DNA of 64,000 nt from Spirochaeta africana DSM 8902 (lineage in GTDB: Bacteria; Spirochaetota; Spirochaetia; DSM-27196; DSM-8902), in assembly GCF_000242595.2 (NCBI RefSeq), contig NC_017098.1, positions 930,001-994,000 on the forward strand, written 5' to 3'. Position numbers and translations under genes: made by a program. The notes beneath the pieces were generated by a model, which was not told the DNA's origin, did no database searches, and saw nothing but the letters and a program-made list of their open reading frames with translations. This document shows positions 52,043-53,234 of this stretch, in pieces (within the stretch, counting starts at the first letter, position 1; every line of letters starts with the position of its first letter).

Positions 52043-52501
52043 TCAATCAACCTCAATCGTCTTCCACACAATCGGCTTGATCGGCTTCCCGTCGGCAATC
52101 GGGCAGTAGCCATTAAAGGTATACTCGGCCATGCCGGCAATAAAAACCGGATCGGTCAGCGGGTAGCCATCCACACTGCACAAAAGCATATCCAGCTGAC
52201 ACAACGGACATAACCCCGTCGTGGACCCGTCCCGCTCCCGCATGAGCGCAGGCGGATTCTCCCGCGGATCAAAGCGATAGCCGCAGTACATGCAGAAACA
52301 GCACTCGCTCTGCGCAATACGCTGTCCATTGCGCAGACTCGTGCGCCCAGCCTGGTGCAGATACTCCTCGCCAAAACGCTCCAGCGCCAGCGGATACAGC
52401 GCTCGGGTATCGATCGGCCAGCCATCCGGATACAACTCAACCTCCAGGCCCGGCCCGTCCTGCCGGTTGTCGTCCCGCTGGTTTTTGTCGTCTGTGCTCA
52501 T
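52043..52501 (-). CDS. small zinc-ribbon protein of unknown function
   Basis: 152 residues. The centre holds CCFCMYCGYRFDPRE and then GLCPLCQLDMLLC, two CxxC knuckles likely to bind one zinc. Around them are WPIDTRALYPLALERFGEEY and, near the end, AEYTFNGYCPIADGKPI. No catalytic residues recognised. AGGAGG precedes the ATG at 52499-52501. It borders the repeat-rich island on its left side. Confidence 0.65.
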   Translation of the reverse strand: MSTDDKNQRDDNRQDGPGLEVELYPDGWPIDTRALYPLALERFGEEYLHQAGRTSLRNGQRIAQSECCFCMYCGYRFDPRENPPALMRERDGSTTGLCPLCQLDMLLCSVDGYPLTDPVFIAGMAEYTFNGYCPIADGKPIKPIVWKTIEVD

Positions 52502-52770: not shown

Positions 52771-52798
52771 GCAGGGGAGGGGAAGCAGTGTGGCAGCT

Positions 52799-52948
52799 GA
52801 GTGGTAGCAAAACGACACCCGACATGCGGGTAACTGCGTACTGCCGGTAAAGTTACCGATCGGGTTATCCCGCTAAAGGCAGTGCGCAGTGTAATTCATT
52901 TTCAGAAAGGCACTTAGATGGAATTCAGGTGTCGTTTTGCTACCACTC
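52799..52948. mobile_element. 150-bp element with perfect 21-bp terminal inverted repeats (MITE-like)
   Basis: The left end at 52799-52819 (GAGTGGTAGCAAAACGACAC...) is the exact reverse complement of the right end at 52928-52948 (...GTCGTTTTGCTACCACTC). Inside, ACTGCGTACTGCC and GGCAGTGCGCAGT form a further 13-bp inverted repeat with one mismatch, so the whole unit can fold back on itself. No open frame and no clear target-site duplication. It lies directly upstream of the glutaredoxin promoter. Confidence 0.75.
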
Positions 52949-52957
52949 GAAACAAGC

Positions 52958-52986
52958 TTGACTTACAGACGCCGTATATATAAAAT
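52958..52986 (+). promoter_or_regulatory. promoter of glutaredoxin gene
   Basis: TTGACT at 52958-52963, 17 bases, TAAAAT at 52981-52986, followed by AGGAGG and the ATG. The -35 box begins 10 bases after the right end of the inverted-repeat element. Confidence 0.6.
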
Positions 52987-53006: not shown

Positions 53007-53234
53007 ATGGCAGTCAAACTATACACCACCCCCACATGCGGGTTTTGCACCCAGATCAAACGATACCTGCGCGAGAAACGCGTGCCCTTTACCGAGTACG
53101 ACGTTTCCCGTGATCTGCGCCGCGCCGACGAAATGATGAAAAAATCCGGCCAGGCCGGCGTGCCGGTCATCGACATCAACGGCAAGGTCCTGGTTGGCTT
53201 CGACAAGGACAAACTCGAACGCAGCCTCCGGTAG
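53007..53234 (+). CDS. glutaredoxin-like protein (NrdH/YruB type)
   Basis: 75-residue thioredoxin-fold redox protein. Active site TCGFC (CxxC) at residues 10-14, cis-Pro in AGVPVIDINGKVLVGFDKDK. The short length and GFD near the end match stand-alone glutaredoxins that pass electrons to ribonucleotide reductase or reduce disulfides. AGGAGGATGCC precedes the ATG. It converges with the truncated AddB-like gene, their ends 25 bases apart. Confidence 0.92.
   Translation: MAVKLYTTPTCGFCTQIKRYLREKRVPFTEYDVSRDLRRADEMMKKSGQAGVPVIDINGKVLVGFDKDKLERSLR

Follow-up and report, generated by a model that had tools for sequence, protein, structure and literature searches.

The 150-bp fold-back at positions 52799-52948 of the window, i.e., the whole 64,000-nucleotide stretch of Spirochaeta africana DSM 8902 that was analyzed, is very probably a non-coding type II MITE which, judged from its sequence, owes its past or present movement to an enzyme supplied in trans, the transposase of a resident IS1-related insertion sequence (IS). 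The element is of an ordinary MITE kind and its family is not described in the sources searched; no paper on such an element in Spirochaeta was found in the literature. Understood in this way, the conspicuous fold-back next to a glutaredoxin promoter would be explained as a passenger of the resident IS, and therefore a regulatory RNA need not be assumed there; most likely, the window copy has no function of its own. The finding adds a MITE/IS pair, and the IS1-related transposase group concerned is widespread in the order and without a Pfam model.

Structure and surroundings of the element

The element and its neighbors in the window are as follows.

52043-52501, minus strand: upstream neighbor gene, divergent, 152 aa, without Pfam match
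52799-52948, no strand assigned: MITE copy, 150 bp, one of five in the genome
52799-52819, plus strand: left terminal inverted repeat (TIR) GAGTGGTAGCAAAACGACACC, composed of an outer GAGT, a 5-bp variable spacer, and the 12-bp inner core CAAAACGACACC
52833-52890, no strand assigned: inner imperfect inverted repeat ACTGCGTACTGCC ... GGCAGTGCGCAGT plus loop
52928-52948, minus strand: right TIR, identical to the left TIR when read on the opposite strand
52958-52986, plus strand: sigma-70-like promoter TTGACT-17-TAAAAT serving the glutaredoxin gene; not part of the MITE
53007-53234, plus strand: glutaredoxin gene, downstream neighbor (PF00462, E 3e-19)

The structure described in an earlier note on this DNA was reproduced throughout: the TIRs are perfect and pair at 21/21 positions in inverted orientation, a second inverted repeat of 13 bp (ACTGCGTACTGCC/GGCAGTGCGCAGT) carries one mismatch, a single G-T position, and there is no coding capacity, since 52799-52948 holds no gene of its own and is only crossed by short spurious frames. 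Sister copies show two flanking bases, and if these are counted as part of the element, the span in the window becomes 52797-52950. The MITE is intergenic between two divergent genes and adjoins the glutaredoxin promoter, as had been noted, with the -35 box starting 10 bases past its end. The accompanying proposal that the insertion brought expression is not supported, because no part of the promoter falls within the element, which thus did not bring it.

Copies, target duplications, and the partner IS

A search of the genome (one contig, 3,285,855 bp) gave four more copies with matching ends, far above chance. The five copies are full-length matches of 149-150 bp and all are intergenic, the four besides the window copy being:

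1586011-1586160: MITE copy, 93% identity to the window copy, between convergent genes
549766-549915: MITE copy, 90% identity to the window copy, between convergent genes
2727630-2727779: MITE copy, 88% identity to the window copy, between tandem genes
524195-524343: MITE copy, 75% identity to the window copy, between divergent genes

All five have TIRs that are perfect over 21-24 bp, and in all five the inner repeat is largely retained. Among the four close copies (88-100% identity to the window copy), 42/42 TIR positions are identical and 26/108 interior positions vary (Fisher p = 0.00015), with 10-19 interior differences per pair, i.e., interiors 9-18% apart. The ends are conserved relative to the interior, and because they are invariant while the interiors vary, perfect ends are no clock of recent insertion. 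Recent movement, which had been read from the perfect ends, is not supported by the window copy itself, which differs from its nearest sister at 11/108 interior positions and has no visible target duplication.

Target duplications were sought by comparing flanks at fixed offsets, with a 9-bp direct repeat beginning 3 bp outside AGT/ACT. They were found at MITE 2727630 (GATGCCTTC/GATGCCTTC, 9/9), MITE 549766 (CATGGTGCC/CATGTTGCC, 8/9), and MITE 524195 (AAAAGGGCG/AAAAGGCCG, 8/9), as well as at IS 473759 (GACTGCTTG/GATTGCTTG, 8/9) and IS 2472858 (AACATTTTC/GACATTTTA, 7/9). Across all 17 elements, agreeing positions make up 52% at this offset, versus a maximum of 40% at any offset in 300 re-paired sets. 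No duplication is detectable at the window copy (2/9), at MITE 1586011 (4/9), or at most IS copies; for the former two, decay or adjacent deletion is assumed. Flank swapping by recombination was considered as a cause of the missing duplications and no element pair was convincing; insertion into palindromic targets, which the inverted flanks at 2731585 and 549766 brought to mind, is not general. Since MITE and IS copies carry 9-bp duplications at the same offset, they are probably mobilized by a common machinery.

The core GAGTnnTnnCAAAACGACACC is common to the MITE ends and to ten ISs of ~1,289 bp: AGTnnnnnCAAAACGACACC, when a few mismatches are allowed, occurs as inverted pairs that span 1,287 bp (AGT to ACT) at ten places. 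Seven of these ISs, once aligned, are 93-98% identical, and every one of the ten has an uninterrupted transposase frame with 97-100% identity to the 383-aa query. Thus, a transposase with matching terminal repeats, which the earlier note had proposed to look for, was identified in ten resident ISs that share the end core, and together with the copy number and the duplications at sister copies this upholds the view of a mobile element. The resident transposase has no match in Pfam or PHROGs, and its search against plasmids gave none either. In NCBIfam, it has only a weak ISL3 N-terminal match and does not reach the IS1 model NF033558, which is matched by 14/18 family members (best E 1.9e-7). 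Its AlphaFold model (mean pLDDT 84.9) has an RNase H-like DDE fold, with VIA-align Z scores of about 11 against retroviral integrase cores and 10.6 against the ISCth4 transposase, and the candidate catalytic acids D133 and D224 are invariant in 18 homologues. Together with the family matches, the modeled structure indicates a DDE transposase of the IS1-related type. The partner IS resembles the IS1 family in its zinc-ribbon N-terminus and DDE transposase, in the target duplication of 8-9 bp, and in the weak matches of family members to the IS1 model, and differs from it in its single 383-aa frame without a Pfam match; the label IS1-related suits it better than formal placement in IS1. Related genomes commonly hold homologues with 28-39% identity, but these have different TIRs. 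The IS1-related transposase group was observed in 39/61 related genomes (e.g., L066, L068, and L080), and none of the members scanned against Pfam gave a transposase match.

Two further observations concern the resident ISs. In the copy at 473759-475045 (L097), position 10 of the TIR is T on both arms, where every other copy has C. A second IS1-related group of ~1.34 kb, with the TIR ACTGACGCCAATTTT and a 412-codon open frame, is found near 1904097, 2116369, 1348110, and 134681, with copies that are 98-99% identical.

Origin, mobilization, and alternative readings

Local alignment of the MITE interior with the partner IS and with the second IS group scored no better than shuffles; the interior being unrelated to the IS, the element is assigned to type II. 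In the proposed mechanism, the outer GAGT of the TIR would be recognized for cutting, the 5-bp spacer would be free to vary, and the inner CAAAACGACACC would be the binding site for the zinc-ribbon/HTH region at the N-terminus of the transposase; integration duplicates ~9 bp of target, as seen in sister copies. The ends were very probably recruited around unrelated DNA rather than left by internal deletion of an IS. The MITE spacer GGTAG has no exact match among present IS ends, and therefore the exact IS that moved the MITE may be gone.

It is highly improbable that the element is instead a REP- or SPRITE-like dispersed hairpin with a regulatory or terminator role, maintained because of the fold of its RNA or DNA and resembling IS ends only secondarily. 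The strand folds as RNA at -73.6 kcal/mol versus -38.5 +/- 3.5 in shuffles (z = -10), as such a hairpin should, and this stability is also the natural result of long arms; in the consensus fold outside the TIRs, no pair has changed on both sides. Two copies lie ~16-35 bp past the stops of convergent genes, in favor of this reading, but copies also occupy divergent and tandem intergenic regions, and the terminator-like signal inside the element is one weak match. Rfam gave a single match, far under its gathering score. The end motif also occurs unpaired, as a hairpin; against this stand the ten ISs with an identical TIR core and the target duplications at a fixed offset. The single-copy form of the regulatory reading, which the earlier note had held out, falls with the five copies.

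A further point for the hairpin is that MITE 524195 departs from the other copies at three arm positions, each of which has changed on both arms. Such matching changes would be produced alike by hairpin selection, transposase selection, or hairpin-templated repair, and the argument is weak, as no more than two MITE lineages are clearly separate. That hairpin-templated repair keeps the MITE arms identical to each other seems unlikely on present evidence; the idea comes from the arms being perfect even in the changed 524195, whereas the widely separated arms of the IS are mismatched in all ten copies (1-5 mismatches, mostly in the same spacer).

Almost no credence can be given to a type I MITE, formed from the 1.29-kb IS by internal deletion: the end core and target-duplication length are common to both, and a ~90-bp fold-back near 1254861 resembles a degenerate form derived from the right end of the IS, but on neither strand does the MITE interior align with the IS better than shuffled sequence does, and its TIR spacer is unlike every IS end.

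At 150 bp and without a transposase gene, the element falls within the size of bacterial MITEs (about 50-600 bp) and has their TIRs, dispersed copies, target duplication (3/5 copies), and TIRs shared with an autonomous IS. MITEAba12 of Acinetobacter is likewise non-coding (113 bp), with 9-bp target duplications and TIRs matching a resident IS, and its IS similarity is confined to the TIRs, which was discussed as a mark of type II MITEs (PMC6382973); these traits, length aside, recur among the MITE copies described here. The two differ in presumed parent (ISAba12 versus an IS1-related element), in range, and in observed movement: MITEAba12 occurs across many species and its movement was observed (PMC6382973), and the present MITE is so far confined to a single known genome. 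Other bacterial MITEs, Correia elements among them, are also short, intergenic, TIR-bearing, and placed beside gene promoters (PMC10969869), as is the window MITE; Correia elements have outward promoters of their own, whereas here the neighboring promoter is outside.

Distribution and related motifs

Across the phylum, 392 further genomes gave no match to the MITE; they include none from its own genus or family. The exact TIR pattern is absent from 45 other genomes of the same order. The pattern AGTNGTNRCAAAACGACACCYG gave no match in genome contigs, a set that may not include the own genome. In viral contigs, AGTNNTNNCAAAACGACACC occurs in two stretches, probably by chance, as neither has a transposase or a partner end that convinces. 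Within the genome, the 12-bp core has seven unpaired copies (542023, 701996, 720855, 1048008, 1064934, 1192806, and 2686910) versus ~0.34 expected by chance; most look intergenic, all seven keep GT at the outer end, and those at 542023 and 720855 each fold into a short hairpin, as does the motif at 470033. These are either remnants or an independent motif. Two small elements, at 2451692-2451863 (172 bp) and 1059699-1059869 (171 bp), have the same ends as the MITE around interiors that are unrelated to the MITE, the IS, or each other.
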